Source: Pimelobacter simplex
Lineage (GTDB): Bacteria > Actinomycetota > Actinomycetes > Propionibacteriales > Nocardioidaceae
DNA: 64,000 bases
Assembly: GCF_900114845.1 (NCBI RefSeq)
Contig: NZ_FOUK01000002.1
Span: 1-64,000, forward strand
Direction: 5' to 3'
The notes under the pieces were generated by a model that saw only the letters and a program-made list of their open reading frames with translations, had not been told where the DNA came from and searched no databases. Below, in pieces: positions 30,399-56,525 of this stretch. Position 1 is the stretch's first letter. Each line of letters starts with the position of its first letter. Position numbers and translations under genes: made by a program.

Positions 30399-31667
30399 TC
30401 AGTTGGCTCCTTCGAGGTCGGCCGGGACCAGCTCGGGCTGGTCGAGGTCGGGAAGATCGTGGCCCATCCGGTCCCGCTTCGTCAGCAGGTAGGACAGGTT
30501 GTGCCCGTTGGGGTGCGGCGTGAGCGGCACCCGCTCGGTCACGGTGACGCCGTAGTCCTCGAGCGAGCTGACCTTGTCGGGGTTGTTGGTCAGCAGCCGG
30601 ACCTCGGAGACGCCGAGGTCCTTGAGGATCTGGGTGGCCGCGCCGTAGTGGCGCGCGTCGGCGGGCAGGCCGAGGTCGAGGTTGGCGTCGACGGTGTCGC
30701 GGCCGCCGTCCTGGAGCTGGTAGGCCTGCAGCTTGGCGACCAGGCCGATCCCCCGGCCCTCGTGGCCGCGCAGGTAGATGACGACGCCGCGCCCCTCCTC
30801 GACGATGCGGTCCATCGCCTCGTTGAGCTGGGGGCCGCAGTCGCAGCGGCTGGAGCCGAAGACGTCGCCGGTCAGGCACTCGGAGTGCACCCGGGTCAGC
30901 ACCGGGCCGGCGTCGGTCAGGGTCGCCGGGTCGCCGTAGACCAGGGCGACGTGCTCGCTGCCGTCGACGGTGATCGTGTAGCCGATGGCGGTGAAGTCGC
31001 CGTGGCTGGTGGGCAGCCGGGTCTCGGCCTCGCGCACCACGTGGCGCTCGACCCGGCGCCGGTGCCGGACCAGGTCCTCGATGGAGATCATCGCCAGGCC
31101 GTGCTCGTCGGCGAACGCCCGCAGCTCGGGCGCGCGCTTCATCGTCCCGTCGTCGTTGACGACCTCGACGAGCACGCCCGTGGGCGTGAGGCCGGCGAGC
31201 CGGCACAGGTCGACGGCGGCCTCGGTGTGCCCGCGCCGGACCAGGACGCCGCCCTCGCGGTAGCGCAGCGGGAACACGTGCCCGGGCCGGGTCAGCTCCC
31301 ACGGCTCGGTCGCCGAGTCGGCCAGGACCCGCACCGTGTGGGCGCGGTCGGCCGCGGAGATGCCGGTGCTGACGCCGTCGCGGGCGTCGACCGACAGCGT
31401 GTACGCCGTGCGGTAGGCGTCCTTGTTGTGCGGCGTCATGAGCGGGATCTCGAGCCGGTCGAGCATGTCGCCCGGCATCGGGGCGCAGATCACGCCGCTG
31501 GAGTAGCGGATCGTGAACGCCATCAGCTCGGGCGTGGCCTTGCTGGCGGCGAAGATGATGTCGCCCTCGTTCTCGCGGTCCTCGTCGTCGACGACGACGA
31601 CCGCGCGGCCGGCGGCGATGTCGGCGATCGCGCGCTCCACCGAGTCCAGGCGGACCTTCTCACTCAT
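30399..31667 (-). CDS. ribBA: bifunctional DHBP synthase / GTP cyclohydrolase II
   Basis: 422 aa. N-terminal RibB (about 1-200): [20 protein letters not shown] with the acidic metal site, [20 protein letters not shown], and [14 protein letters not shown]-terminal RibA (about 205-420): [20 protein letters not shown], with the three zinc Cys, and [20 protein letters not shown]. It supplies both branches of riboflavin synthesis, from ribulose 5-phosphate and GTP. Both catalytic sites look intact. The ATG overlaps the ribE stop by 4 nt. Confidence 0.97.
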
Positions 31668-32272
31668 GCGGTCTTCTCCTTGGTGTAGGCGCCGAGGAGC
31701 TTCTCGACGTGCTTGGCGAGGACGTCGACCTCGAGGTTGACCTGGTCCCCCGCGGCCCGGAAGCCGAGCGTCGTCCGGGCGAGGGTCTCGGGGATGAGGC
31801 TGATCGTGAAGCTGGTGTCGCCGGCCTCGACGACCGTCAGCGAGATGCCGTCGACCGTGATCGACCCCTTGTCGACCAGGTAGCGCCCCAGCTCGGCGGG
31901 CATGGCGATCTCGACGACCTCCCAGTGCTCGCTCGGCGTCCGCGCGAGGACCTGGCCGATCGCGTCGACGTGGCCCTGGACGATGTGCCCGCCCAGCCGC
32001 TTCTCGGCGGTGACCGCGCGCTCCAGGTTGACCTGGTCACCGGCAGCGAGGCCGCCGAGGCTGGTCTTGGCCAGCGTCTCGGCCATCACGTCGGCGGTCC
32101 AGGTGGTGTCGGTGCGCTCGGCGACGGTCAGGCAGCAGCCGTTGACCGCGATCGAGTCGCCGAGGCCGGCGTCGGACAGGGTGACGTCGGAGGCGATGGT
32201 CAGCCGGATGGCGTCCCCCTGGTCCTCGACGGCGGCAACGGTGCCGAGCTCCTCGACGATGCCGGTGAACAT
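31664..32272 (-). CDS. ribE: riboflavin synthase, alpha chain
   Basis: 202 aa. Dismutates two 6,7-dimethyl-8-ribityllumazine molecules into riboflavin and the pyrimidine. Two homologous lumazine-binding repeats: [12 protein letters not shown] to VNLERAVT (about 1-95), and [16 protein letters not shown] to [16 protein letters not shown] (about 96-195); VNGCCLTV carries the usual Cys. ATG 32272 is fused to the ribD stop (TGATG); the longer frame upstream is a shadow of ribD. Also named ribC in some species. Confidence 0.97.
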
Positions 32273-33333
32273 CAGTTGGTTCCTCTCTCGGTGGGACGCA
32301 GCGCGGGGCGCAGGACGAGCCGGACGTTGGCGTCGGGTCCGTCCCCGACGACGGTGGTGCCGGCCAGCTCGAGGCGCAACGCGTCGGCGATGGTGGCGAT
32401 TCCGAGGTCGCCGACGGCGGAGCGCCCGGCGCCCAGCAGCATCGGCGCCACATAGGTGACGACCTCGTCGACGAGGCCGGCGCGGAGGAAGGACGCGGCC
32501 AGCGTCGGCCCGCCCTCCAGGAAGACGTGGTGCCGGTCGTGCTCGGCGTAGAGCGTGCGCAGGGCGGTGTCGGGGTCGCGGGTGCGCAGGTGCAGCGTGG
32601 GTGCGGCGTCGTCGAAGACCCGGCGCTCGGCCGGCAGGTCCCGCTCCCCCATCACCACGCGCAGCGGCTGGACGCCGACCGGCAGGTCGTCGTCGCCCCG
32701 GACGGTGAGCTGGGGGTCGTCGACCGCGACCGTGTTGGTGCCGACGAGCATCGTGTCGGCCAGGCCCCGCAGCCGGTGGGTGTCGCGGCGCGCGGCCGGC
32801 GACGACACCCAGCGCGACGTGCCGTCGGCGGCGGCGCTGCGCCCGTCGAGCGTCGTCGCGAACTTCCACGTCACGAACGGGCGGCCGTGCCGGTGCGCGA
32901 ACGTCCAGGCCGGGTTGACCCGCTCGGCCTCGTCGGCCAGCAGCCCGGTCTCGACCTCGACGCCCGCGGCACGCAGCGTGTCGGCGCCTCCCTGGGCGAG
33001 CGGGTTCGGGTCGCGCTGGGCGACGACCACTCGCCGTACGCCGGCGGCGATGAGGGCCTGCGCGCACGGACCCGTGCGCCCCGTGTGGTTGCACGGCTCG
33101 AGCGTCACGACGGCGGTCGCCCCCCGTGCCCGCTCACCCGCCACCGCGAGCGCCTCGACCTCGGCGTGCGGCGTCCCCGCGCCGTGGTGGTAGCCCTCGC
33201 CGACGACCGTGCCGTCGGGCGCGAGCAGCACGCAGCCCACGCGGGGGTTGGGGTGGAGCGGCACGCCCGGGCTGGCCGCGAGCGCGACGGCGCGACGCAT
33301 CGCGTCGGTCTCGCTGGTGGTCGTCTCGGCCAC
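32272..33333 (-). CDS. ribD: bifunctional riboflavin deaminase-reductase
   Basis: 353 aa. N-terminal deaminase (about 1-145): zinc motif HAEVEAL and LEPCNHTGRTGPCAQAL with the catalytic His/Glu/Cys set. C-terminal reductase (about 150-350): FVTWKFATTLDGRSAA, SRWVSSPAARRDTHRLRG, DTMLVGTNTVAVDDPQL, VFLEGGPTLAASFL for NADPH. First gene after the FMN riboswitch. The start is GTG 33333, with GAGAGG a few nt upstream; in-frame codons above it lie in the riboswitch expression region. Confidence 0.96.
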   Translation of the reverse strand: MAETTTSETDAMRRAVALAASPGVPLHPNPRVGCVLLAPDGTVVGEGYHHGAGTPHAEVEALAVAGERARGATAVVTLEPCNHTGRTGPCAQALIAAGVRRVVVAQRDPNPLAQGGADTLRAAGVEVETGLLADEAERVNPAWTFAHRHGRPFVTWKFATTLDGRSAAADGTSRWVSSPAARRDTHRLRGLADTMLVGTNTVAVDDPQLTVRGDDDLPVGVQPLRVVMGERDLPAERRVFDDAAPTLHLRTRDPDTALRTLYAEHDRHHVFLEGGPTLAASFLRAGLVDEVVTYVAPMLLGAGRSAVGDLGIATIADALRLELAGTTVVGDGPDANVRLVLRPALRPTERGTN

Positions 33334-33440
33334 GGGTGCCTCTCGTCGTCCTGATCGTCGGTGACGCGGACTCCGGGGCTGGCGGGACACCCGGCGGCTC
33401 ACCCGTCGTTTCGACCGGCTCGTCCGTCGGACGCTCCTGC

Positions 33441-33560
33441 GTGCACTTCCCATCCGGACTTTGACCGTCGGTCCAGGAGTTCCACCTGGTCAACCGATCA
33501 CTGGCTGCGATCGGGTCGCGGACTTTCACCGCCGGCTCGGATTTTCACCGACCCCAGAGC
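33441..33560 (-). promoter_or_regulatory. FMN riboswitch (RFN element)
   Basis: The minus strand contains the conserved RFN blocks in order: GGGGTCGGTGAAAATCC, GCCGGCGGTGAAAGTCCGCG, GATCGGTTGACCAGGTGG (with AACTCCTGG following), then CGACGGTCAAAGTCCGGATG. It lies about 110 nt upstream of ribD. Downstream, CGTCCGACGGACG can form a short hairpin and may be part of the expression platform, acting on transcription or on the GTG start. FMN binding should shut off ribD-ribE-ribBA-ribH. The rest of the 384-nt gap (33561-33717) shows no clear promoter hexamers. Confidence 0.93.
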
Positions 33561-34766: not shown

Positions 34767-35939
34767 TCAGGCCGACAGGATCAGCCCGCTGGTCGGCACC
34801 CCCGTGCCAGCCGTGACCAGCACGTGCGCGGCATCGGCGACGGGGTTGACGGAGGTTCCGCGCACCTGGCGGACGCCCTCGGCGATGCCGTTCATGCCGT
34901 GGATGTAGGCCTCGCCGAGCTGCCCGCCGTGGGTGTTGATGGGGAGCCGGCCGCCGATCTCGATGGCGCCGTCCTTGACGAAGTCCTTCGCCTCGCCGCG
35001 GCCGCAGAAGCCGAGCTCCTCGAGCTGCATCAGCACGTAGGGGGTGAAGTGGTCGTAGAGGATCGCCATCGGCATGTCCGAGGGGGTGAGCCCGGACTGC
35101 TTCCACAGCTCGCGGCCGACCACGCCGATCTCGGGGATGCCGATGTCGTCGCGGTAGTACGACGTCATCACGAACTGGTCCTTGCCCGAGCCCTGGGCCG
35201 CCGCGGCGACGTACGCCGGCTTCTGGGCCAGGTCGCGCGCCCGCTCCGCCGAGACGATGACGAGCGCCACCGCCCCGTCGGACTCCTGGCAGCAGTCGAG
35301 CAGGTGCAGCGGGTCGGCGATCATCCGGGAGGCCTGGTGGTCCTCGAGCGTGATCGGCTTGCCGTAGAAGAAGGCGGCGGGGTTGGTCGCGGCGTGCCGG
35401 CGATCGGCGACCGCGACCCGGCCGAAGTCCTCGGACGTCGCGCCGTACTCGTGCATGTAGCGGCGGGCCTGCATGGCGACCGTGGCGGCCGGGGTGGACA
35501 GGCCGAGGGGGTAGGTCCACGCGTTGTCGAGGCCGTTGGTGTTGACCTGCGCGGCGGCCCACTTCGAGACCTGGCCGAAGCGGTCGCCGGAGCGCTCGTT
35601 GAAGCCGCGGTAGGCGACGACGACGTCGGCGACCCCCGTGGCGACAGCCATCGCGGCCTGCTGCACGGTCGCGCAGGCGGCGCCGCCGCCGTAGTTGATC
35701 CGGCTGAAGAAGCGCAGCTCGGGGATGCCGAGCTCGCGGGCGACCGCGATCTCGGACGACGTGTCCATCGTGAAGGTGACCAGGCCGTCGACGTCCTGGG
35801 GCGTCAGGCCGCAGTCGGCCAGTGCGTGCCGGACCGCCTCGACGGAGAGCTGGAGCTCGGAGCGACCGGACTCCTTGGAGAACTCGGTGGCGCCGATGCC
35901 CGCGATCGCGGCCTTGCCGGAGAGGGTGCGCTCGCTCAT
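34767..35939 (-). CDS. ltp2: steroid side-chain aldolase Ltp2 (thiolase-like)
   Basis: 390 aa. Thiolase-fold retro-aldolase that, in Mycobacterium and related genera, works with the DUF35 domain of ChsH2 to remove the last propionyl unit of the cholesterol side chain. N-terminus KAAIAGIGATEFSKESGRS and the core SRINYGGGAACATVQQAAMA, YRGFNERSGDRFG, PYVLMQLEELGFCGRGEAKD match Ltp2-like thiolases rather than degradative thiolases. It is last in the operon FadE28/29-ChsH2-ChsH1-Ltp2, the same order as Rv3544c-Rv3540c of M. tuberculosis. It overlaps the chsH1 stop by 4 nt. Function is inferred from family and context. Confidence 0.88.
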   Translation of the reverse strand: MSERTLSGKAAIAGIGATEFSKESGRSELQLSVEAVRHALADCGLTPQDVDGLVTFTMDTSSEIAVARELGIPELRFFSRINYGGGAACATVQQAAMAVATGVADVVVAYRGFNERSGDRFGQVSKWAAAQVNTNGLDNAWTYPLGLSTPAATVAMQARRYMHEYGATSEDFGRVAVADRRHAATNPAAFFYGKPITLEDHQASRMIADPLHLLDCCQESDGAVALVIVSAERARDLAQKPAYVAAAAQGSGKDQFVMTSYYRDDIGIPEIGVVGRELWKQSGLTPSDMPMAILYDHFTPYVLMQLEELGFCGRGEAKDFVKDGAIEIGGRLPINTHGGQLGEAYIHGMNGIAEGVRQVRGTSVNPVADAAHVLVTAGTGVPTSGLILSA

Positions 35940-36334
35940 GCCGCCACCGTCACGGTGCCGATGACGTGGTCGCCGAGCGAGACCGCGCCGACCACCTTGA
36001 TCGTGGCGACGCCGTCGTCGACCGCGGTCACCTCGCCGGTGAACGTGAACGTGTCGTAGGGGTACGCCGGGGCGCCCAGCCGGATCGCGATCCCGCGGAT
36101 CTGCACGTCCGGTCCGGCCCAGTCGGTGACGTAGCGCTCGCAGAGCGCCGTCGAGGTGAGGATGTTGACGAAGATGTCCTTCGAACCTGCGGCCTGCGCG
36201 ATGTCCCGGTCGTGGTGGACGTCCTGGAAGTCACGGGTCGCGATCGCCGTCGACACCACGAGGGTCGGGGTGATGGGCAGGCTCCACTCGGGAAGCCGGT
36301 CCCCCACGGTCAGCGTGGTCAGCGCGGTGCTCAT
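35936..36334 (-). CDS. chsH1: MaoC-type enoyl-CoA hydratase subunit ChsH1
   Basis: 132 aa single hot-dog domain. The hydratase signature FQDVHHDRDIAQAAGSKDIF carries the catalytic Asp/His pair of (R)-hydratases. In M. tuberculosis ChsH1 pairs with the MaoC domain of ChsH2 to hydrate the unsaturated C22 steroid-CoA; the matching partner is encoded just upstream (36717-37247). ATG 36334 overlaps the DUF35 gene stop by 4 nt; the longer frame upstream is its shadow. Length equals Rv3541c-type proteins (about 130 aa). Confidence 0.88.
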   Translation of the reverse strand: MSTALTTLTVGDRLPEWSLPITPTLVVSTAIATRDFQDVHHDRDIAQAAGSKDIFVNILTSTALCERYVTDWAGPDVQIRGIAIRLGAPAYPYDTFTFTGEVTAVDDGVATIKVVGAVSLGDHVIGTVTVAA

Positions 36335-36720
36335 CGGTCCACCTTCGTCCAGATCGGGAGGGTCAGGTCGTCGTCGATCTCGTTCCAGCCGACCTGCAGC
36401 CGGTCGCCGATCTCGACGGGCTCGGTCACCTCGGCCACCATCCGCACGCCCTCGTCGAGGTCGAGCAGCGCGATGACGAGGGGCAGCTCCTTGCCGGGCA
36501 CCTGCGGCGCGTGGTGCACGAGGTAGGAGAAGACCGTGCCGGTGCCCGCGGCGACCACGTAGCCGCGGTCGAACGCGCCGCAGTCCGGGCAGGCCGGACC
36601 GGGCGGGTGGCGCAGGACGCCGCACGCGTTGCACTTCTGGATGCGGAGCTCGCCCTCCTTCGTCCCCTCGAAGAAGTAGGCGTTGTCGCGGCTGACGACC
36701 GGGCGCACCGGGCCGCTCAC
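36331..36720 (-). CDS. DUF35 zinc-ribbon/OB-fold protein (C-terminal half of a split ChsH2)
   Basis: 129 aa. An N-terminal rubredoxin-like zinc ribbon (IQKCNACGVLRHPPGPACPD with CG following, four Cys) joins an OB fold (GTVFSYLVHHAPQVPGKEL). In M. tuberculosis ChsH2 this domain is fused to a MaoC domain and binds Ltp2 to activate the aldolase. Here it is a separate gene: its ATG (36720) overlaps the stop of the MaoC-domain gene by 4 nt. So the complex is likely ChsH1-ChsH2N plus DUF35-Ltp2, made from coupled genes. Confidence 0.86.
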   Translation of the reverse strand: MSGPVRPVVSRDNAYFFEGTKEGELRIQKCNACGVLRHPPGPACPDCGAFDRGYVVAAGTGTVFSYLVHHAPQVPGKELPLVIALLDLDEGVRMVAEVTEPVEIGDRLQVGWNEIDDDLTLPIWTKVDR

Positions 36721-37247
36721 GACTGCGCCTCCTTGCCCCGCGGGATGAACTTGAGGACCCGGAAGAGCATGGTCGCGACGCGCTCCTCGCCGACGTACCA
36801 GGTGTTGCGCGAGGTCACGAAGTAGCCGACGCCCATGCCGGTCGCCTTCGGGCCGACGACGGAGTCGAGCGCGGTGGTCACCCGCACCCGCTCCCCCACG
36901 GTCAGGTAGCGGTCGTAGGACTGCTCGCAGTTGGTGCCGAGGACGGCGGTGAAGCCGGCGTCGGTGAGCACCCGCATCATCGCGTGCAGGGGGTCCTTCT
37001 CGGACGGCTTGCCGCCGAGCCCGTACATCGTCCAGACCTGGGCCATCGACGGCGGCGCCTCGCCCGCCGTGAAGCGCGGGTTGTCGACGCCCATCGCCTC
37101 GAGCCAGTTGTTGATCGTGGGCTGGTTGACCTCGTCGCGCGCAGTGCGCTCGGCAGCCTCGCCCCAGCCCTGGATCCGCTCCGCCTCGGACATGAGGTGG
37201 GCGTGCAGGTCGGCCGGGACGAGCTCGGGAGCAGGTGCGGCGCTCAT
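36717..37247 (-). CDS. MaoC-like hydratase subunit (N-terminal half of a split ChsH2)
   Basis: 176 aa. A hot-dog domain preceded by an N-terminal helical stretch (ERIQGWGEAAERTARDEVNQ), then WLEAMGVDNPRFTAGEAPPS and the TNCEQSYDRYLTVGERVRVT core. The catalytic HxxD pattern of ChsH1 is not obvious, fitting the non-catalytic half of a heteromeric hydratase. Together with the 129-aa DUF35 protein next to it, the summed length (305 aa) equals a normal single ChsH2 (about 311 aa in M. tuberculosis). The ATG overlaps the dehydrogenase stop by 4 nt. Confidence 0.84.
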   Translation of the reverse strand: MSAAPAPELVPADLHAHLMSEAERIQGWGEAAERTARDEVNQPTINNWLEAMGVDNPRFTAGEAPPSMAQVWTMYGLGGKPSEKDPLHAMMRVLTDAGFTAVLGTNCEQSYDRYLTVGERVRVTTALDSVVGPKATGMGVGYFVTSRNTWYVGEERVATMLFRVLKFIPRGKEAQS

Positions 37248-39400
37248 CGCGGCACCCGCGGCAGGCCGAGGCCGAACATCGAGATCAGCTCGCGCTGCAC
37301 CTCCTGGACCCCGCCACCGAAGGTGAGGACGAGGTTCCGCTTGGCCTGCGCGTCGAGGTAGTCGAGCAACCTCCTGGTCTCCTCTTCTCCCGGGTCGCCG
37401 TGCCGGTGCACGAGCGCGATCAGGTCGGCGAGCAGGTGCTGGACCTGGTCGGCCGCGAACACCTTGGACGACGAGGCGTCGGCCACCTTGATCTCGCCCG
37501 AGGCAGCCGCGCGGGCGACCTCCCAGTTGAGCAGCTCGTTGATACGGAACACCGCGGTGGTCCTGCCGAGCACGTCCCGCACGTCGGGAGCGTCGCGGAG
37601 CCCGGCCGCGTCGGCCCAGCGCACGACCCGGTCGCGCAGGCCCTCGATCCGGCCGGCCGGTCCGAGCATGACCCGCTCGTGGTTGAGCTGGGTGGTGATC
37701 AGCCTCCACCCCTGGTTCTCCTCGCCGACGAGCATGTCGACCGGCACCCGCACGTCGTTGAAGTAGGTCGCGTTGACGTGGTGGGAGCCGTCGGCGGTGA
37801 TGATCGGCGTCCAGGAGTAGCCGGGGTCGGTCGTGTCGACGATGAGGATCGAGATCCCCTTGTGCTTGGGGGCGTCCGGGTCGGTGCGCACCGCGAGCCA
37901 GACGTAGTCGGCCTGGTGGCCGCCGGTGGTCCACAGCTTCTGGCCGTTGACGACGTAGTGGTCGCCGTCGCGCCTGGCGGTCGTGCGCAGGGACGCGAGG
38001 TCGGTGCCGGCGTCGGGCTCGGAGTAGCCGATCGCGAAGTGGACGTCGCCCTTGAGGATGCGCTCGAGGAACAGGTCCTTCTGCTTCTGCGTGCCGTACT
38101 TGATGAGCGTGGGACCGACGGTCTGCAGCGTCACCGCGGGCAGGTGGACGTCGGCGTACTGGGCCTCGTTGGCGAAGATCGTCTGCTCGATCTCGCCGAG
38201 CCCGTGGCCGCCGTACTCCTTCGGCCAGCCGACGCCCATCCAGCCGTCGGTGCCGAGCTGCCGGATCTGGGCCTGGTACGACGGGCCGTGCCGGTCGAAC
38301 GTCCCGTCGTCGGCGACGTCGGCCGGCGCGTCGTGCGCGAGGCGTGCGAAGTAGGCGCGCACTTCGGCCTTGAGCGCGCGCTGCGCCTCGGTCAGCTCGG
38401 GGTTCTTGGCGCCGGAGTCCTCGACCGGGACGTCGGCGGCGAGCGTGTCGAGCGCGTGGGCGAGGTCGGTCCCCCAGGTCGTGAACGCGACGAGCGGGTA
38501 GGTGATGTCGACGCCCATGCCGCCGTGCAGGTGGTGGCACGTGCGGAACGCGTAAGGGGCGACCTGGCTGACCCAGTAGCCCGCGACGGCGAGGTCGTCG
38601 GCGGCGGGGATGCCCTCGCTGACCCTCCAGACCGCGTTGTCGGCGGCGAGGTCGAGCGTGCGCGAGGTGACGTAGACGTCGGCCATCTGCAGGGACACGG
38701 CCTGGAACTCCGCCAGCGCGCGGCCGAACTGCCGGCGGCCCTTGACGTAGTCGGCGGTCAGGTCGCGGGCGCCGGCGAGCACACCGGCCGCGGTGACGGT
38801 GAGACCGGTGCGGGCCAGCGCGTCGAGGCGCTCGGCGGCCCCCTCGTCGAGGAGGTCGGCCGGCGCGCCGTCGAGGACGACGGTGTGCTGGGGGTTCGCG
38901 CTCGACGCGCTCGACGGCGCCAGGGTGACCCCGGGGCCGTGCGGGTCGACCAGCGCGACCACGGCGCGGCCCGTCGCCCCGTCGGTGGCGACGACGAGCA
39001 GGCGATGAGCCCGCTCGGCGTAGGTCACGGCGAGCTTGCGGCCGCTGAGCGTGCCGTCGGCGTACGTCGCCGAGCCATGCAGCGCGGGCGTGACGACGAC
39101 CTCGCCGGAGGCGATGCCGGGCAGCAGCTCCTTGCGCTGGGCGTCGGTGCCGTGGCCGGCCAGGGTGAGCGCGCCGCAGCACAGCGTCTCCCAGGCGGGC
39201 ACCTGCACCGCTCGTCGTCCGGCCTCGCGCAGGAGCACGGCGACGGCGTCGAGGCCGAGCCCCTCACCGCCGTGCTCCTCGGGAACGGGGAGCGACGTCA
39301 GGCCGGCCGCGGCCCAGGCGGACCACTCCCGGGCATCGGACTCGCGCTCGAGGACCTCGCCGACGACGGCGCGGACTGCGTTGATCGCCTCTGCATCCAC
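37244..39400 (-). CDS. fused acyl-CoA dehydrogenase: FadE28-like (ChsE1) plus FadE29-like (ChsE2)
   Basis: 718 aa, two acyl-CoA dehydrogenase units in one chain. Residues about 1-325 resemble FadE28/ChsE1; after a short linker (about 326-336) residues 337-718 match FadE29/ChsE2 closely (GWPKEYGGHGLGEIEQTIFA, HFAIGYSEPDAGTDLASLRT, ADGSHHVNATYFNDVRVPVD, C-terminal FGLGLPRVPR). In mycobacteria these are separate chains of an alpha2beta2 enzyme that desaturates the 3-carbon steroid side chain. The gene takes the exact operon position of fadE28-fadE29. GTG 39400 is preceded by a KstR operator; the TACAGT -10 overlapping it ends 7 nt before the GTG, so the mRNA may be leaderless. Confidence 0.88.
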   Translation of the reverse strand: MDAEAINAVRAVVGEVLERESDAREWSAWAAAGLTSLPVPEEHGGEGLGLDAVAVLLREAGRRAVQVPAWETLCCGALTLAGHGTDAQRKELLPGIASGEVVVTPALHGSATYADGTLSGRKLAVTYAERAHRLLVVATDGATGRAVVALVDPHGPGVTLAPSSASSANPQHTVVLDGAPADLLDEGAAERLDALARTGLTVTAAGVLAGARDLTADYVKGRRQFGRALAEFQAVSLQMADVYVTSRTLDLAADNAVWRVSEGIPAADDLAVAGYWVSQVAPYAFRTCHHLHGGMGVDITYPLVAFTTWGTDLAHALDTLAADVPVEDSGAKNPELTEAQRALKAEVRAYFARLAHDAPADVADDGTFDRHGPSYQAQIRQLGTDGWMGVGWPKEYGGHGLGEIEQTIFANEAQYADVHLPAVTLQTVGPTLIKYGTQKQKDLFLERILKGDVHFAIGYSEPDAGTDLASLRTTARRDGDHYVVNGQKLWTTGGHQADYVWLAVRTDPDAPKHKGISILIVDTTDPGYSWTPIITADGSHHVNATYFNDVRVPVDMLVGEENQGWRLITTQLNHERVMLGPAGRIEGLRDRVVRWADAAGLRDAPDVRDVLGRTTAVFRINELLNWEVARAAASGEIKVADASSSKVFAADQVQHLLADLIALVHRHGDPGEEETRRLLDYLDAQAKRNLVLTFGGGVQEVQRELISMFGLGLPRVPR

Positions 39401-39409
39401 GAGACAAAC

Positions 39410-39423
39410 TGTAACGTGTTCTA
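39410..39423. promoter_or_regulatory. KstR operator, between dehydrogenase fusion and hydrolase
   Basis: TGTAACGTGTTCTA matches the KstR consensus TNNAACNNGTTNNA at every fixed base. It lies 9 bp from the GTG of the ChsE fusion and 11 bp from the ATG of the divergent hydrolase gene, so both should be repressed by KstR. The same 14-mer recurs at 53802. Confidence 0.85.
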
Positions 39424-39434
39424 GTCTTGCGCGC

Positions 39435-40349
39435 ATGGCCGTGCTCCCACTGGACGTCGCCCGCCGGAGGGTGCACCTCCCCTCGACCCTCGTGCCCGAG
39501 GGCCGGCTGGTCGAGCTGCCGGGGCGCGGCACGACGTACGTGACCGACACGCCGGGGCCGGATCCCCACTCTCCCACGATCGTGCTGCTCCACGCGCTGG
39601 GCACGACCGGCCTGCTCACCTGGTTCCCCGCGATCGAGCCGCTGTCCCGGCGCTTCCGGGTGGTCACGCTCGACCAGCGCTGGCACGGCCGGGGCATCCA
39701 GAGCCCGGAGTTCTCCCTGGTCGACTGCGCGGACGACGTCGCGGCGCTCGCGGCGGTGCTGGGCCTCGACGAGGTCGTCGTCGGCGGCTACTCGATGGGC
39801 TCGATCGTGGCGCAGCGGGTGTGGCGCCAGCATCCGTCCCTGGTCTCCGGACTGGTCCTCGGCGCGACCACCGACCGCTTCCAGCTCACCCCGGCCGAGC
39901 GCGGGTTCTTCTTCGGGATGGGCACCTCGATGCTCGCGCTGCGCGGCGTGTCGCGCTCGCGGACGGCGCTGCGCGCGGCGCGCGCGGCCGCGCGAGGCGG
40001 CGGGCTCGAGCCGTCCGACATGCACGAGTGGGCGCTGCGGGAGTTCCGGTCCACCAGCCCCTGGGCGGTCGGTCAGGCGCTCGCCGCGCTCGGGCGGCAC
40101 CACTCGCGGCCCTGGCTCGGGCGGATCGACGTACCGACCGCGGTGGTGGTGATGATGCGCGACCGGGTGATCCCGACGTCGCGGCAGATCACCCTCGCCC
40201 GCTCGATCCCGGGCGCGACGATCCACGAGGTGGACGACGGGCACGCCGGCTGCGTGCTGGCGGCGGAGAAGTTCGTGCCGAAGATGGTCGAGGCGGCGGC
40301 GACCGTCAACGCGCGTCGGCGGGACTTCCCGCGGCGACCGCCTCGCTGA
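39435..40349 (+). CDS. alpha/beta-hydrolase
   Basis: 304 aa. Full catalytic triad visible: nucleophile Ser120 in VVVGGYSMGSIVAQ, Asp in VVVMMRDRVIPTSRQ, His in EVDDGHAGCVLAAE; oxyanion residues in VLLHALGTTG. It belongs to the broad esterase/lactonase/C-C hydrolase group. Being divergent from the ChsE fusion over a shared KstR operator, it probably acts in steroid or ester breakdown, for example freeing sterol from esters; that is inference. Its 3' end overlaps the convergent WS/DGAT gene by 44 nt. The C-terminus is Arg-rich (NARRRDFPRRPPR). ATG 39435 is the first start after the operator. Confidence 0.87.
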   Translation: MAVLPLDVARRRVHLPSTLVPEGRLVELPGRGTTYVTDTPGPDPHSPTIVLLHALGTTGLLTWFPAIEPLSRRFRVVTLDQRWHGRGIQSPEFSLVDCADDVAALAAVLGLDEVVVGGYSMGSIVAQRVWRQHPSLVSGLVLGATTDRFQLTPAERGFFFGMGTSMLALRGVSRSRTALRAARAAARGGGLEPSDMHEWALREFRSTSPWAVGQALAALGRHHSRPWLGRIDVPTAVVVMMRDRVIPTSRQITLARSIPGATIHEVDDGHAGCVLAAEKFVPKMVEAAATVNARRRDFPRRPPR

Positions 40350-41715
40350 GTCGCGCGAGCTCGTCGGGGAAGTGCCGCACGAGCGCGTCGGTGTCGGGCA
40401 TCGACTCGCGGCACGCGATCGCGCCCACGTGCATCTGCCCGGCGTTCGACATCACCGTGATGTTGAGCCCGGCGCCGTGGAAGACCGGCCCCAGCGGGCA
40501 GAGTGCGTCGATGCGCGCGCCCATGAAGTAGAGCGGGATCGGCGGCCCGGGCACGTTGGAGATGACCAGGTTGTGCACGACCGGGTGCCGCTCGGCCAGG
40601 CGCAGGTTGGCGTAGGCGCGCACCGCGAGGCCGAACGTGCGCGGCGCCGCGAACTCGGCCCAGTCCTGCAGCGCGTCGGCGCTGATCGCGTTGTGGTGCT
40701 CCTTGGCGTGCTGGTTGCGCTCGGCGAGCATGTGCAGCCGCTCCAGCGGGTCGGCCACGTCGGTGCCGAGCTTGGTGAACAGCGCGGAGACCTTGTTGGC
40801 GCCCGTCGAGCGGCGCGAGCTGTCGCGCACGCTGACCGGCACCGTGGCCAGCAGCGAGCTCTCGGGGAGCTCGTCGCGCTCGTCGAGGTAGGCGCGCAGT
40901 GCCCCGCCGGCGACGGCGAGGACGACGTCGTTGACCGTCGTCCCGGTCACCTTCTTGATCCGGCGGATCTCGTCGAGGTCGAGGTCGGCCATCGCGATCG
41001 AGCGGTGCGAGGTGATGGTGCCGTTGAACGACGTGCGCGGAGCGGAGAACGGCGCCGCCATCGCCGTCCCCCTGCGGGCGCGGCCGATGCTCTTGGTGAC
41101 CAGCTGCGCCGAGGGCTTGAGCACCTTGACGAGGGTGACCGGGCGCGCCGCCGTACCGATCACCGCGCGGCCGAGCAGCTCGCCGCGGCCGGGATCGCGC
41201 GGTGGCGCCGGGTGCTCGCTGACCATGGGCGCGGCGTCGGGCTCGACGGAGCACAGGTGCGAGACCAGGTTCGCGCCGGAGACGCCGTCGACCGTGGCGT
41301 GGTGCATCTTGGCGAAGACGACGACGCGGCCGTCGTCGTACCCCTCGATGACCCACATCTCCCACAGGGGGCGGGACCGGTCGAGCGGGAGGGAGGCCAG
41401 GTGGGCGCAGAGGTCCATCAGCTCGGGGTACCCGCCGGGCGTGGGCAGCGCGAGGCGGTGGACGTGGCGCTCGATGTCGAACGCCTTGTCCTGGACCCAC
41501 ACCGGGTGGTCGAGGCCGAGCGGCACCCCGCGCACCTTGCGGGTGAAGGCGGGCACGTCGCGGACCCGCAGGTCGATCTCGCGCTGGAGCCCCTCGAAGG
41601 AGTACGGCGCGGTCATCGTCGCCGGGTCGAGCACCATCACCGCGCACACGTGCATGAGCTGGGCCGGCGTCTCCAGGTAGAGGAAGCTCGCATCCAACCC
41701 GGACAGTCGGTCCAT
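40306..41715 (-). CDS. wax ester synthase / diacylglycerol O-acyltransferase (WS/DGAT, Tgs-like)
   Basis: 469 aa. Condensation-type acyltransferase using acyl-CoA to esterify diacylglycerol or long-chain alcohols, usually at the membrane/lipid-droplet surface. The catalytic HHxxxDG motif is HHATVDG at 138-144; N-terminal MDRLSGLDASFLYLETP and TTVNDVVLAVAGGALRAYLD are family hallmarks. It is next to and divergent from a LipC-like lipase, resembling the lipC-Rv0221 pairing in M. tuberculosis. A KstR-like site (41736-41749) lies 20 bp upstream. It may store sterol- or fatty acid-derived acyl units when steroid is used. Confidence 0.93.
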   Translation of the reverse strand: MDRLSGLDASFLYLETPAQLMHVCAVMVLDPATMTAPYSFEGLQREIDLRVRDVPAFTRKVRGVPLGLDHPVWVQDKAFDIERHVHRLALPTPGGYPELMDLCAHLASLPLDRSRPLWEMWVIEGYDDGRVVVFAKMHHATVDGVSGANLVSHLCSVEPDAAPMVSEHPAPPRDPGRGELLGRAVIGTAARPVTLVKVLKPSAQLVTKSIGRARRGTAMAAPFSAPRTSFNGTITSHRSIAMADLDLDEIRRIKKVTGTTVNDVVLAVAGGALRAYLDERDELPESSLLATVPVSVRDSSRRSTGANKVSALFTKLGTDVADPLERLHMLAERNQHAKEHHNAISADALQDWAEFAAPRTFGLAVRAYANLRLAERHPVVHNLVISNVPGPPIPLYFMGARIDALCPLGPVFHGAGLNITVMSNAGQMHVGAIACRESMPDTDALVRHFPDELARLSEAVAAGSPADAR

Positions 41716-43456: not shown

Positions 43457-43816
43457 ATGACCAGTTCCCTCGACCGCTTCGACCCTCACCTCCGGCGCGA
43501 CATCGAGGACGTTCTCGACGCGCTGCACAGCGAGCGAGCCAGCGCACACCTCGACTACGCAAGACTCGCGAACGCCGACTGGGGCGCTACCGGGCGGCTG
43601 TCCGGGCCCGACGCGGCCGAGCGACACCCGAACGACGTCATCCATCGTCGCGATGCCGCTCAGCGACGCATCGACGGTGCCCACGTCGCGCTGCGCAGCT
43701 TCGAGCACTTCCTGGCCAGCGTGACTCCTAGCGCGGCAGCCCCAGGATCCGCTCCCCCGCCACATTGCGCAGGATCTGCGTCGTCCCGCCCGCGATCGAC
43801 AGGCAGCGGGTGTTGA
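43457..43816 (+). CDS. small protein of unknown function, 3' end overlaps fadE34
   Basis: 119 aa in the open frame. Residues 1-90 (MTSSLDRFDPHLRRDIEDVL then a His/Asp/Arg-rich helix) look like real protein; the last 30 (Ala/Ser/Pro-rich) lie antisense to the end of the FadE34-like gene and are less convincing. It has the duplicated GGAGGA ribosome site of the preceding small gene. Likely real but possibly shortened in nature; function unknown. Confidence 0.5.
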   Translation: MTSSLDRFDPHLRRDIEDVLDALHSERASAHLDYARLANADWGATGRLSGPDAAERHPNDVIHRRDAAQRRIDGAHVALRSFEHFLASVTPSAAAPGSAPPPHCAGSASSRPRSTGSGC

Positions 43817-45785
43817 GCTGCTCCCAGACGTCGGCCGCGAGCGGGTCGTCGGACTCCTTGCCGAGGGGGCCGAGGAGGGCGAGGTCGTCGCCCTGGAGGG
43901 TGACGACGAGCTCGGAGGACTCCTGGCGGCTGCGGACGCCGAGGAGCTTGGCGACGCTCGACTCGGCGCCGGGGCCGTGGCCGCCGAGGGCGCGGAGGGT
44001 GGTGCGGACGCCGAGGAGGCCGCCGACGGTGGCGAGGGCGACCTGGTGGCCGACCTCGGTCCGGGCGACGGGGCCGAGGTCGCGGGTGGCGGCGAGCTCG
44101 ACGGCGCGCTCGACGCTCTTGGTCAGGCGGGCGCTGGCCATGGCGACGCGCTCGTTGGCGAGGGTGGTGCGGGCGAGCTTCCAGCCGTCGCCGGGCTCGG
44201 CGACGACGCAGTCGTCGGGCACGAGGACGTCGTCGAGGAAGACCTCGTTGAACAGGGCCTCGCCGGTGATCTCGCGGAGGGGGCGGACCTCGATACCGGG
44301 CGAGCGCATGTCGACGAGGAAGTACGTGATGCCCTTGTGCTGCGGGGCGTCGGGGTCGGTGCGGGCCAGGCAGATGCCCCAATCGGCGCGCTCGGCGACC
44401 GACGTCCACACCTTCTGCCCGGTCAGCGACCAGCCGCCGTCGACGCGCACCGCGCGGGTGCGCAGGGAGGCGAGGTCGGAGCCGGAGCCTGGCTCGGAGA
44501 ACAGCTGGCACCAGGTCAGCTCGCCGAGCAGCGAGGGGCGCACGAAGCGCTCGCGCTGGGCGTCGGTGCCGTGGGCGAGGATGGTGGGGACGGCCCAGCC
44601 GGCGATCACCAGGTCCGGACGTACGACGCCGGCCCTCCCCAGCTCCTGATCGATGACCAGCTGCGTGGCGGGATCGGCCCCGAGACCGTAGGGCGCGGGC
44701 CAGTGCGGCGTGAGGTACCCCGCGTCCACGAGCGCCGCGCGCTGCTCGGCGGCCGGCAGGCCGGCGATCTGCTCGGACGTGGTCCGCACTCCGGGGCGGA
44801 TCGCCTCGTCGCGGCCCTCGAGGTCGACGTCGACGCGGCGGCGGGTGCCGGTCACCGCGGCGGCGGTGAGCCGCTCGGCGGCGGCATCGGCGGAGCCGAC
44901 GAGGGCGCGCAGGGACAGCGCCCGGCGCAGGTAGAGGTGGGCGTCGTGCTCGTAGGTGAAGCCGATCCCGCCGAGCACCTGGATGCAGGCCTTGGCCACC
45001 TCGACGGCGCCGTCGAAGCAGATCGCCTGGGCGACGTCCACGGCGAAGGCCCACTGAGCGTCGGCGTCGGCGGAGTCGTCGGTGTCGTGGAGGGTCGCGG
45101 CACCGGCCGCGTCCCAGGCCGCGGCGGTGACCGACTCGGCGGTCTCGAGCATCTGGGCGCACAGGTGCTTGATCGCCTGGAAGGCGCCGATCTTCTGGCC
45201 GAACTGCTCGCGCACCTTGGCGTAGTCGACCGCGGTCTCCAGGCACCACCGGGTCACGCCGGACGCCTCGGCGGCGGCGAGGGTGACGGCCAGCAGCCGG
45301 CGCCGCTCGTCAGTCGACGCGGCCGCGCCCCCGGCGAGCCGGGCGTGGCGGGAGCCGAGGTCGAGGCCCGGCTCGGAAGTGACGGTGCCGCCGTCGTCGA
45401 GCAGCAGCAGCCGGTCCGGGTCCGCGGCGAGCGCGCCGCCGTCCCACACGACGCCGCCGGGGTGCACCTGCACGCCGTAGCGGCCCGGCCGCCCGGTCAG
45501 CAGCGACCCGATCGTGGCGCCGAGCAGCCCACCGGGGACCAGCTCGTGGGCGCAGGCCTCGAGAGCGACGGCCTGGTCGAGCAGGCTGCCGCCGCCACCT
45601 CCGGCGGACTCGGGGACCGCGATGGCGGCGATGCCCATCTCGTCGGCGGCCGCCCAGACGTCGGCGAAGCACGCGGAGACCTCGCCCTCGGCGGCGCGCA
45701 CGGCTGCCAGCGGGGACAGGCTCGCCGCCCACTTGCGCAGGCTGTCGGCGAGCTCGGCCTGCTCGTCGCTGATCCCGATCGACAT
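43728..45785 (-). CDS. FadE34-type (tandem) acyl-CoA dehydrogenase
   Basis: 685 aa, two acyl-CoA dehydrogenase units in one chain, as in FadE34/ChsE3 of M. tuberculosis (about 711 aa), which acts on steroid CoA-esters with longer side chains. N-half (about 1-310): GGGGGSLLDQAVALEACAHE, FGQKIGAFQAIKHLCAQMLE. C-half (about 330-685): HWPAPYGLGADPATQLVIDQ, LFSEPGSGSDLASLRTRAVR (flavin/acyl contacts), TGQKVWTSVAERADWGICLA, LNTRCLSIAGGTTQILRNVA. Unlike the 718-aa gene its halves are less FadE29-like. An exact KstR palindrome lies 18 bp before ATG 45785. Confidence 0.88.
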   Translation of the reverse strand: MSIGISDEQAELADSLRKWAASLSPLAAVRAAEGEVSACFADVWAAADEMGIAAIAVPESAGGGGGSLLDQAVALEACAHELVPGGLLGATIGSLLTGRPGRYGVQVHPGGVVWDGGALAADPDRLLLLDDGGTVTSEPGLDLGSRHARLAGGAAASTDERRRLLAVTLAAAEASGVTRWCLETAVDYAKVREQFGQKIGAFQAIKHLCAQMLETAESVTAAAWDAAGAATLHDTDDSADADAQWAFAVDVAQAICFDGAVEVAKACIQVLGGIGFTYEHDAHLYLRRALSLRALVGSADAAAERLTAAAVTGTRRRVDVDLEGRDEAIRPGVRTTSEQIAGLPAAEQRAALVDAGYLTPHWPAPYGLGADPATQLVIDQELGRAGVVRPDLVIAGWAVPTILAHGTDAQRERFVRPSLLGELTWCQLFSEPGSGSDLASLRTRAVRVDGGWSLTGQKVWTSVAERADWGICLARTDPDAPQHKGITYFLVDMRSPGIEVRPLREITGEALFNEVFLDDVLVPDDCVVAEPGDGWKLARTTLANERVAMASARLTKSVERAVELAATRDLGPVARTEVGHQVALATVGGLLGVRTTLRALGGHGPGAESSVAKLLGVRSRQESSELVVTLQGDDLALLGPLGKESDDPLAADVWEQLNTRCLSIAGGTTQILRNVAGERILGLPR

Positions 45786-45802: not shown

Positions 45803-45816
45803 TAGAACGCGTTCTA
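45803..45816. promoter_or_regulatory. KstR operator, perfect palindrome
   Basis: TAGAACGCGTTCTA is a 14-bp perfect palindrome and matches every fixed base of the KstR consensus. It lies between fadE34-like (start 45785) and the methyltransferase (start 45836), and so may control both. A TAGAGT -10 (45824-45829) ends 6 nt before GTG 45836, another leaderless layout. Confidence 0.88.
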
Positions 45817-49712: not shown

Positions 49713-49726
49713 TGGAACGTGTTTCA
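49713..49726. promoter_or_regulatory. KstR operator before kstR and the GT4 cluster
   Basis: TGGAACGTGTTTCA matches the KstR consensus at all fixed positions. It lies between the GT4 gene (start 49654, minus) and kstR (start 49808, plus), so it should autoregulate kstR and may also control the glycosyltransferase operon. Confidence 0.82.
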
Positions 49727-49807
49727 AATTATGCGCTACTTGCCGGTAGCCTATCCACTGGGTCCACAATGACCCGCCTCGTCGCAGCACCTCACAAGGG
49801 AGACCCG

Positions 49808-50419
49808 GTGACCATCGCGAACCCGTCCACGACCGACGACCTCGGCTCGGCCGCGCAGCGGGAGCGACGCAAGCGCATTCTCGACGCGACCTACGAGCTG
49901 GCGAAGTCGGGCGGTTTCGACGCGGTCCAGATGCGTGCGGTCGCCGAGCACGCGGACGTCGCCCTCGGCACCCTCTACCGCTACTTCCCGTCGAAGATCC
50001 ACCTGCTGGTCTCCGCACTGGGCCGCCAGTTCGACGAGGCCGCCACCCGCCTCAACGAGCGCGAGATCCCCGGCGACAACCAGGCCGACCGCGTCCTCTA
50101 CGTGCTCAAGCGGATGGCGCGCGGCATGCAGGGCGACCCCAAGCTCACCGAGGCGCTCACCCGCGCCTTCATGTTCGCTGACAGCAGCGTCGCCGCCGAG
50201 ATCCACGTGGTCGGCATGGCGATGACCTCGATCGTCACCCACGCCATGCACGGCGGGGCGCCCAGCGAGGGCGCCGTCTCCGACGAGGACGTCGCCGTGG
50301 CGCGCGTCATCGGCGACGTGTGGCTCTCGGCGCTGGTCTCGTGGGTGACCGGCCGCTCCACGGCCGCGGAGACCGCGGCGCACATGGAGACGGCGATTCA
50401 CTTGATCCTCCGCGACTGA
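49808..50419 (+). CDS. kstR: TetR-family steroid regulator KstR
   Basis: 203 aa. N-terminal helix-turn-helix (SAAQRERRKRILDATYELAK, GGFDAVQMRAVAEHADVALG, TLYRYFPSKIHLLVSALGRQ, about 12-70) is nearly identical to M. tuberculosis KstR in the recognition helix region; the C-terminal ligand domain follows (LTEALTRAFMFADSSVAAEI, VARVIGDVWLSALVSWVTGR). KstR represses cholesterol catabolic genes and is released by a steroid-CoA intermediate. AAGGGAG precedes GTG 49808; an ATG at 49769 in frame is possible. The matching operators in this island, including one before kstR, strongly support the call. Confidence 0.93.
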   Translation: MTIANPSTTDDLGSAAQRERRKRILDATYELAKSGGFDAVQMRAVAEHADVALGTLYRYFPSKIHLLVSALGRQFDEAATRLNEREIPGDNQADRVLYVLKRMARGMQGDPKLTEALTRAFMFADSSVAAEIHVVGMAMTSIVTHAMHGGAPSEGAVSDEDVAVARVIGDVWLSALVSWVTGRSTAAETAAHMETAIHLILRD

Positions 50420-54669: not shown

Positions 54670-55257
54670 TCAGCCCAGCGCGACGTACTGGAGGTCCTTG
54701 GTCAGCCAGCGGCCGTCCTCGAGCACGAGCTCGAGCTGCAGACGGTAGTTGCGGGCCTCCTCCTGGAACTGGGTGGTCTTGTTCTTCACGACGCCGCTGG
54801 TCGCCACGATGACGGTGGCGGTGTCGTCGTCACCGGCGACGAGGCCGGTCCAGACGACCTTGGCGACCATGTCGGACTGGGCCTCGCCGGCGAGCTTCTT
54901 GAGGGAGGCGGCGCCCTTGGTGTACTGCTCCTTGAAGTCGCCGGTCGCCATCGAGGTCACCGCCTCGATCGTCCGGTCGGGCTCGCGGTAGTCGAAGTTG
55001 ACGAACGCGGTGACCATCTTCGAGGCGGCCGCGAGCTGGTCGGCGGTGCGCTGCTGCTCGCTGTCGTCGGCGAGCGGCACCGGCTCGACGACGCCGCGGC
55101 CGACGTCCTGGCCGGCGCCGGAGACGACGTCGGTGCCGTCGACCGTGTCGCCCGAGGTGACGTGGAGGTAGAGCAGCAGGATCGCCACGCAGCCGCAGAT
55201 CACCGTCGCGGCGTAGAGAGCGATGTTGAGCCGGACCCGACTGCGCTCGTCGGTCAC
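54670..55257 (-). CDS. Mce-associated membrane protein (MAS-like)
   Basis: 195 aa. An N-terminal anchor (LNIALYAATVICGCVAILLLYLH, about 10-32; one membrane pass) and a periplasmic domain (AAASKMVTAFVNFDYREPDR, ASLKKLAGEAQSDMVAKVVW) typical of MAS proteins paired with MceF. GTG 55257 overlaps the mceF stop by 4 nt (GTGA); an upstream ATG in frame lies in mceF coding sequence. Same family as the next gene. Confidence 0.84.
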   Translation of the reverse strand: MTDERSRVRLNIALYAATVICGCVAILLLYLHVTSGDTVDGTDVVSGAGQDVGRGVVEPVPLADDSEQQRTADQLAAASKMVTAFVNFDYREPDRTIEAVTSMATGDFKEQYTKGAASLKKLAGEAQSDMVAKVVWTGLVAGDDDTATVIVATSGVVKNKTTQFQEEARNYRLQLELVLEDGRWLTKDLQYVALG

Positions 55258-56525
55258 TTGCTCGCCACCGGACCGATCAGCAGCCACTTCCACGCATCCC
55301 CTCCCAGTACGGACAGGTTCTCCGGCTGGTTCAGCCTGACCGGATTGCCCGCGGTGTCGACCAGACCCGGCACTGCCCCCGTGGCCGGATCGTAGGTGTC
55401 ACTGTAGACGCGGCCGGGCGACGCGCGGTCGTTGCGGTTGCCCGGCGCGTACTTGCTGCCGCGCATGACGTACGGCGGCCCGGCCGTGCAGTTGACCTGG
55501 GCCGGCTCGGTGTCGGTGAGGTCCTGCGTCGAGCGCCACTCGCTGGGCGGCACGTAGCCCTTCGTGCAGGGGGGCACGCTGTAGTCGAACTGCAGGTTGA
55601 CGTGCCCCCAGCCGTCGGACGTGCTGCCCGTCGGGCCGCCGGCGATGAGCGCCGGGTAGGTGACGAGGAGCTGCTCGATGCCGTCGAGCTCGCTGAGCAG
55701 GATCTGGTCGACCGAGACCAGGTCGCCCAGCAGGATCGGCAGGGTCGGCTCGAGCTGGCGCAGCAGCTGGTCGAGCTCCCGGGCGGCGCCGGGCGTCGCG
55801 CTCAGCACCTTGCGCAGGTCGCCGTCGCTGCCGCGCAGCGTCGAGGTGATCGTGTTGAGGTCCTGGGAGAACTTGCGGATGTTCTCCTTCTGGCCGCGCT
55901 GCGTGCGCAGCACGGCGAGACCGTTGTCGAGCAGCGCGATCGTCTCGTCGGTGTGCTCGCTGGCCTCGGCGATGAATGCCTGTCCCCCGTCGAGCAGCTG
56001 CTGCAGGTCGGTGCCGGTGTCGTCGAACATCAGCCCGAGCTCGCGCACGACCGTCTGCAGGCTGCCCTTGTCGACCGAGTCGACGAACCGGCTCAGGTCG
56101 ACCAGGAGGTCGCCCTCGTCGACCGGCAGGGACTTGTCGCTGCCCGTGAAGCGGGTGCCGTTCTCGGCGTACGGGCCCTCGTCGTCGGGCGGCTGGAAGT
56201 CGAGGTACTGCTCGCCCACGGCCGACAGGTTGTGCACGAACATCGGCGCGTCGCGCGGCAGCTTCGTGCCGTCCTTGAGGTCGAGGGTGAGGTCGACGCC
56301 GTCGTCGGTGGTGTCCATCCGCGAGACCCGGCCGATCTTCACGCCGCGGTAGGTCACCTCGCTGCCCTCGAAGAGGCCGCCGGAGCCGGGCAGGCTGGCG
56401 GTCACGGTGAGCCCGCGGCCGGTGATCTTGTCGACCAGGCCGAGGTAGCTCGCGCCGATGTAGGTGATGCCGACCGCGCTGAGGACGACGAACGCCATCA
56501 GCCGGATCCGTACGCCGCGGCTCAT
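55254..56525 (-). CDS. Mce family protein MceF
   Basis: 423 aa. N-terminal membrane anchor (IRLMAFVVLSAVGITYIGAS), then the MlaD/MCE beta-barrel domain (about 38-120: GLFEGSEVTYRGVKIGRVSR, DAPMFVHNLSAVGEQYLDFQ), then a helical needle-like region (ELGLMFDDTGTDLQQLLDGG) and a Cys-containing C-terminus (PPCTKGYV). Sixth subunit of the hetero-hexameric Mce tunnel that carries hydrophobic substrates across the cell wall. ATG 56525 overlaps the mceE stop by 4 nt; the longer frame is a shadow. Confidence 0.9.
   Translation of the reverse strand: MSRGVRIRLMAFVVLSAVGITYIGASYLGLVDKITGRGLTVTASLPGSGGLFEGSEVTYRGVKIGRVSRMDTTDDGVDLTLDLKDGTKLPRDAPMFVHNLSAVGEQYLDFQPPDDEGPYAENGTRFTGSDKSLPVDEGDLLVDLSRFVDSVDKGSLQTVVRELGLMFDDTGTDLQQLLDGGQAFIAEASEHTDETIALLDNGLAVLRTQRGQKENIRKFSQDLNTITSTLRGSDGDLRKVLSATPGAARELDQLLRQLEPTLPILLGDLVSVDQILLSELDGIEQLLVTYPALIAGGPTGSTSDGWGHVNLQFDYSVPPCTKGYVPPSEWRSTQDLTDTEPAQVNCTAGPPYVMRGSKYAPGNRNDRASPGRVYSDTYDPATGAVPGLVDTAGNPVRLNQPENLSVLGGDAWKWLLIGPVASK

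Follow-up and report, generated by a model that had tools for sequence, protein, structure and literature searches.

In Mycobacterium tuberculosis the steroid acyl-CoA dehydrogenase (ACAD) ChsE1-ChsE2 is encoded by two genes and is described as an alpha2beta2 heterotetramer (PMC6678751). According to PMC8399759, the known enzymes carry the catalytic Glu in one subunit only and bind FAD at the dimer interface; the same source reports a C3 preference for the Thermomonospora curvata enzyme (Tcur3481-Tcur3483), assigns the same C3 step in bile-acid degradation by Rhodococcus jostii to CasL/CasN, encoded by separate genes, and describes CasC of R. jostii RHA1 as a single-chain steroid ACAD whose base lies only in the C-terminal unit. 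For Nocardioides simplex, PMC7807495 places one dehydrogenase, KR76_12325, before four igr-slot genes under KstR control and tabulates it as chsE2/fadE29/casL alone; the terms chsE1, fadE28, fused and fusion have 0 occurrences in that text.

Here we describe a gene of the soil actinobacterium Pimelobacter simplex, located in a window of 64,000 nucleotides (the whole stretch of DNA that was analysed), which, judging from its sequence, very probably encodes a single-chain ChsE1-ChsE2 (FadE28-FadE29) ACAD acting on the C3 side chain, an enzyme with a part in the breakdown of the cholesterol side chain. An earlier note on this DNA had presented the product as a single-chain steroid ACAD distinct from FadE34; this stands for the present enzyme, but the layout itself is already known from CasC (PMC8399759), so that single-chain steroid ACADs as such are not new.

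Results

One reading frame joins two ACAD units

The gene had been described in the earlier note as encoding 718 aa, with a short in-frame linker devoid of stop codons. Its coordinates and length proved correct, the strand, which had been left unstated, is minus, and the ORF is unbroken from its GTG start, with no internal stop between 39400 and 37244. Two ACAD units were found by Pfam in the protein, in the order beta then alpha in one frame:

37244..39400, minus strand, fused ACAD gene (GTG start at 39400, stop at 37246-37244, 718 aa)
38447..39400, minus strand, N half, residues 1-318, FadE28/ChsE1-like, putative non-catalytic beta unit
38393..38446, minus strand, linker TLAADVPVEDSGAKNPEL, residues 319-336, its end aligned with the fadE29 start of split relatives
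37247..38392, minus strand, C half, residues 337-718, FadE29/ChsE2-like, putative catalytic alpha unit
37676..37678, minus strand, Glu575 (NHER) codon, matching E247 of 4x28_A in the alignment
37316..37318, minus strand, Gly695 codon, at the alignment position where the 6wy9 G363A variant departs from 6wy8_B
43728..45785, minus strand, a separate fused ACAD, FadE34/ChsE3-like, with a KstR-type box at 45803-45816

A single chain with beta before alpha is the arrangement of FadE34/CasC-type enzymes, and the two separate subunits of the alpha2beta2 ChsE1-ChsE2 are not found here; because the product is one 718-aa chain, we classed it as a single-chain variant and not as a ChsE1-ChsE2 heterotetramer.

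The halves correspond to FadE28 and FadE29

Trees were built for our own selection of 60 N-type and 72 C-type units, and several of their outgroup branches are long. In them, 22 fused rows from Nocardioidaceae formed a 100/100 subclade within the 100/100 igr-type FadE28 (N half) and FadE29 (C half) clades, while the halves of FadE34 lay apart, alongside further ACAD pairs from the same genome. In BLAST comparisons the C half was 61-68% identical to five split FadE29s versus 32% to the C half of the window's FadE34. The N half was 39-45% identical to five split FadE28s; against the N half of the window's FadE34 it gave 33% over 60 residues, and against other FadE34 N halves at best 31% over 254 residues (locus L147). 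Both halves are therefore orthologous by tree to the ChsE1 and ChsE2 subunits, with reference pairs that take their FadE28/FadE29 names from the operon order in locus L137, and not from the M. tuberculosis sequences themselves. In L137, a locus of family f7, the fadE28-fadE29 pair lies between CYP125 (E 1.8e-265 to the solved CYP125) and chsH2, with ltp2 further on. Based on this near-identical CYP125 and on a Tsukamurella match described below, we take f7 to be the family of Mycobacterium. The check proposed in the earlier note, that the halves be nearest to FadE28 and then FadE29 and not to FadE34, thus came out as it had anticipated in both trees and BLAST, and the distinct FadE34 that it had placed in this island is indeed a separate gene with halves in other clades.

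These data bear on the possibility that the gene encodes a FadE34/CasC-type enzyme for the C5 side chain, the known kind of single-chain ACAD. The beta-alpha order and a similar length are shared, and CasC has, by description, two fused ACAD domains of which the C-terminal one carries the base (PMC8399759). However, neither half groups within the FadE34 clades, on which ground we rejected membership in FadE34/CasC, a distinct FadE34 gene is present at 43728-45785, and the operon is of the C3 (igr) type. We consider this alternative highly improbable. The single-chain ChsE1-ChsE2 resembles CasC and FadE34/ChsE3 in being one chain, with the beta-alpha order in the case of FadE34, and differs from them in the C5 side chain that they act on and in the clades of the FadE34 halves; the likeness to CasC is by description only.

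Among solved structures, the chain closest to the N half (residues 15-324) was 6wy8_A (Tcur3481, E 2.7e-42), and those closest to the C half (339-716) were 6wy8_B (Tcur3483, E 3.8e-102) and then 4x28_A, a ChsE4-ChsE5 chain (E 1.6e-99). The T. curvata enzyme, which shares the glycine aligned with Gly695, differs in having two chains, and its identity to the halves is 33% and 45-46%. CasL/CasN differ in being split genes with alpha first, and occupy clades neighbouring the fused one. Two loci from genomes of the same genus, L147 and L150, have the operon order alpha, MaoC, DUF35, beta, Ltp2, which we take to be Cas-like and bile-acid-like; genome G005 carries an alpha-MaoC-DUF35-beta-Ltp2 operon in addition to the fused type.

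Residues and modelled structure

A Glu at the catalytic column was present in 37/37 igr-type C units and in 0/59 N units, the N half of the fused chain included. Conversely, the Q-F of the FAD motif RRQFG was kept in all 37 igr N units, while its F occurred in 0/37 C units; the N half studied here retains both RRQFG (222-226) and HGGMG (292-296). Catalytic Glu is therefore confined to the alpha unit, where Glu575 is the predicted base. Gly695 was invariant across 18 aligned fused proteins. The VIA-align rows cover the C half for the most part.

An AlphaFold model, of the monomer only and from 18 fused sequences, reached a mean pLDDT of 82.8 and a pTM of 0.83. Superposition of its C half on 6wy8_B aligned 370 residues (Z 40.9, rmsd 2.7), and that of its N half on 6wy9_B aligned 326 (Z 40.2, rmsd 2.6). 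Blocks 311-340, the linker region, had pLDDT values of 86-94, and the three stretches below 50 all lie within the C half.

By analogy with the two-subunit enzymes, we infer that the Glu in one unit and the FAD at the interface are now contained within one chain, which would form a homodimer of (beta-alpha)2 architecture; activity, FAD content and oligomeric state are likewise predicted. The C half would contain the acyl-CoA pocket and, with Glu575, the base, and the N half, lacking a base, would complete the FAD site through RRQFG and HGGMG. A single chain would also secure a 1:1 supply of both units. The word trimeric, used in the earlier note, does not suit the known two-gene enzymes, which are heterotetrameric.

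The operon and its putative KstR operator

The fused gene is followed by the remaining genes of an igr-type operon and preceded by a KstR-type box:

39410..39423, KstR-type box TAGAACACGTTACA (as read on the minus strand), 9 nt upstream of the fused gene's start codon
36717..37247, minus strand, MaoC-like gene, N-terminal part of ChsH2, overlapping the fused gene by 4 nt
36331..36720, minus strand, DUF35 gene with zf-ChsH2 and OB_ChsH2_C domains, corresponding to the C-terminal part of ChsH2 but a separate gene here
35936..36334, minus strand, MaoC gene in the ChsH1 position
34767..35939, minus strand, Ltp2-like aldolase (thiolase fold)
49769..50419, plus strand, KstR regulator gene (KstR chains, E 1e-54), with its own box at 49713-49726

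Neighbouring genes in the order fused ACAD, MaoC, DUF35, MaoC, Ltp2 overlap by 4 nt at their predicted starts, and the window's Ltp2 is 73-78% identical to that of the f7 igr loci L131-L134, L137, L138 and L140. The fused gene thus lies with chsH2, chsH1 and ltp2 in the order seen in L137, in agreement with the operon slot that had been assigned to it. The substrate class, a C3-side-chain steroid CoA, is predicted from this operon together with orthology.

The motif TNNAACNNGTTNNA, which we take to be the KstR consensus operator, occurs four times in the 64-kb window against 0.03 expected. The four boxes precede the fused gene, fadE34, the KstR gene and an oxidoreductase gene; by motif match, the one near the fused start is a putative operator that would place the gene in the KstR regulon. 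Among the best 80 of 342 confirmed loci, 78 had such a box within 400 nt upstream, the two others being L071, in which the match begins late, and L080, which is truncated by its contig. Orthologous halves by tree, the slot before ChsH2-ChsH1-Ltp2 and the KstR-type box are thus shared with ChsE1-ChsE2 of M. tuberculosis, from which this locus differs in having one chain and not two genes.

Several further genes lie nearby. An alpha/beta hydrolase gene (39435-40349) is divergent from the fused ACAD and shares with it the intergenic stretch that holds the KstR box; a wax ester synthase/DGAT gene (40306-41715) sits between the fused ACAD and fadE34; riboflavin-type genes (ribBA, RibD-like; 30399-33453) are found near this flavoenzyme operon; and Mce-type genes occupy 55254-59136, one of them matching the Mce4 cholesterol porter model.

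The junction is read through across relatives

The named loci kept were the best 80 of 342 confirmed, a selection that biases the set towards close relatives. Within these 80, a script test scored 78 as fused and the junction was read through in 79; the additional one, L098, from the complete genome of Nocardioides sp. TF02-7, shifts frame later, inside the C half, which may be a sequencing error or mark a broken gene. The exception among these best 80 of 342 is L099 (Saccharopolyspora ipomoeae), split by an in-frame TGA. The stop or frameshift at the junction that the earlier note had named as evidence against a fusion was therefore absent from these named relatives, L099 apart. Named carriers in this set belong mainly to Nocardioides, and also to Pimelobacter simplex, Marmoricola and Aeromicrobium. 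In L090 (5614-8808) the N half of the fused gene is 63% and the C half just 57% identical, and a second N-type match lies downstream; this oddity could stem from recombination or from a MAG contig of mixed origin.

In a census of 120 Nocardioidaceae genomes, drawn evenly and searched at E 1e-120 or better, 36 genomes, spread over 4 of 26 genera, carried the fusion. In each of the 36 the frame ran across the junction without a stop; 35 matches were nearly full length, and that in G396 began only at model position 202. At E 1e-120 the 120 genomes yielded no split igr-type copy. An artefact of sequencing or assembly, by which a stop or frameshift was lost, might find an echo in L098, although its frameshift lies inside the C half. 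It is opposed by the read-through in 79 of the best 80 of 342 loci and in 36/36 family carriers, counts that refute it, and by a Tsukamurella record annotated as a single 759-aa CDS, so that we regard its probability as negligible.

Comparison of the window gene with six relatives gave dN/dS values of 0.20-0.36 for the N half and 0.17-0.27 for the C half. This constraint and the conservation of the N half speak against its being vestigial. The linker (18 codons, six pairs) gave 0.24-0.65 and is the least constrained part of the chain, as would be expected of a linker and equally of a cleavable site. This variability, together with an in-frame GTG at residue 347 and an ATG at 388, would suit a frame that is translated as one but works as two subunits, released by linker proteolysis or made from an internal start. 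Yet residues 347 and 388 sit inside the alpha unit and codons 301-400 contain no further in-frame ATG, GTG or TTG, so the linker itself holds no start codon; besides, the linker is confidently modelled by AlphaFold, and none of the 120 family genomes showed a split igr-type copy at E 1e-120. We judge a two-subunit product to be quite unlikely, and a working single chain remains the preferred reading.

chsH2 is split beside the fusion

Next to the fused ACAD, chsH2 is itself divided (36331-37247), so that a fission adjoins a fusion in one operon. ChsH2 was encoded by two genes in 62 of the best 80 of 342 loci (L098 being unsure) and by one ORF in 15, while three had no match to either part. Loci with split ChsH2 belonged to Nocardioidaceae, as judged from their names or genome codes, or to MAGs whose names go no further than order or phylum; non-family loci with both parts had them in one ORF, among all loci examined. 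Elsewhere, ChsH2 tethers the hydratase to the aldolase. It is conceivable, though doubtful, that the last steroid side-chain metabolon has been rewired in Nocardioides, with the ACAD pair welded and ChsH2 cut, in which case complex assembly and channelling would differ from those of mycobacteria and the ACAD fusion would have been both repeated and selected.

Discussion

How the fusion may have arisen, and how often

In most split relatives fadE29 starts with M-F-I-E/D-L-T, which aligns with the end of the linker (K332-T337), where fused proteins have K-N-x-E-L-T. In eight genomes from the class scan (G060, G399, G216, G376, G337, G431, G288 and G384) the two genes share a frame and are separated by one stop only; about a third of pairs would be same-frame neighbours by chance. 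The fusion probably arose by loss of the fadE28 stop at this stop/start junction.

A second family scan, of 151 f7 genomes, detected unbroken fusions in 10/10 of g126 and 10/10 of g144, in G510 (1/9 of g148) and in G548 (1/9 of g83); that of G458 (g153) was seen from model position 263 only. We read g126 as Tsukamurella because its locus L176 shares 97% identity with a protein from T. tyrosinosolvens whose annotation is a single 759-aa acyl-CoA dehydrogenase CDS. The fusion is thus present in Tsukamurella and one more genus of the same family, as well as in scattered single genomes. G510 also carries a split FadE28-FadE29 pair, and its two forms (L174 and L212) fall in different clades.

A quick tree of 79 selected concatenated pairs (35 fused, 44 split), from which most of the 80 named loci were absent, as were 3/10 g126 loci, 4/10 g144 loci and the cut G458, needed at least five state changes by parsimony, a count that does not distinguish gain from loss. 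In AU tests, whose groups, except that of all fused forms, were picked after inspection of the tree, a single clade of all 35 fused rows was rejected (p-AU 2e-6), as were Nocardioidaceae+g126+G510 with g144 (0.002), the same three with G548 (1e-84), and g144 with G548 (0.001). Not rejected were Nocardioidaceae+g126 (0.30) and g126+G510 (0.60). Fused forms therefore occupy at least three clades, and the floor is set at three because one clade of Nocardioidaceae and Tsukamurella is compatible with the data (p-AU 0.30). The same join seems to have been made repeatedly and independently, by three or more fusions if neither fission nor transfer accounts for some of the pattern.

A single old fusion, inherited or transferred and split again elsewhere, would draw on the blindness of the tree count to gain and loss, on the two groupings compatible with single clades, and on the coexistence of fused and split copies in G510. 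Against it stand all four AU rejections, the linkers, which vary between fused groups, and the six outgroup rows, which are split. It is in our view an unlikely account, to be kept in mind beside the several fusions that we favour.

Significance

Pimelobacter simplex 3E carries the fusion (L022), and KR76_12325 is probably the same gene. A text search of the N. simplex lithocholate paper (PMC7593942) for the gene gave no match, and we found no description of the fusion in the literature listings and passages covered, an earlier mention in full texts being possible; the fusion is thus recurrent and, as far as our literature search reaches, unremarked. For annotation this implies a correction, as the Nocardioides table naming chsE2 alone hides chsE1 in the same chain.

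The gene provides, in natural single-chain form, a steroid enzyme otherwise known with two subunits, in which subunit roles and FAD stoichiometry would therefore be easy to test. Furthermore, the repeated join at the same junction and the possible intermediates in relatives, with one in-frame stop, make the route from an obligate heteromer to a fused enzyme testable, and comparable alongside the separate fusion that gave FadE34/CasC.
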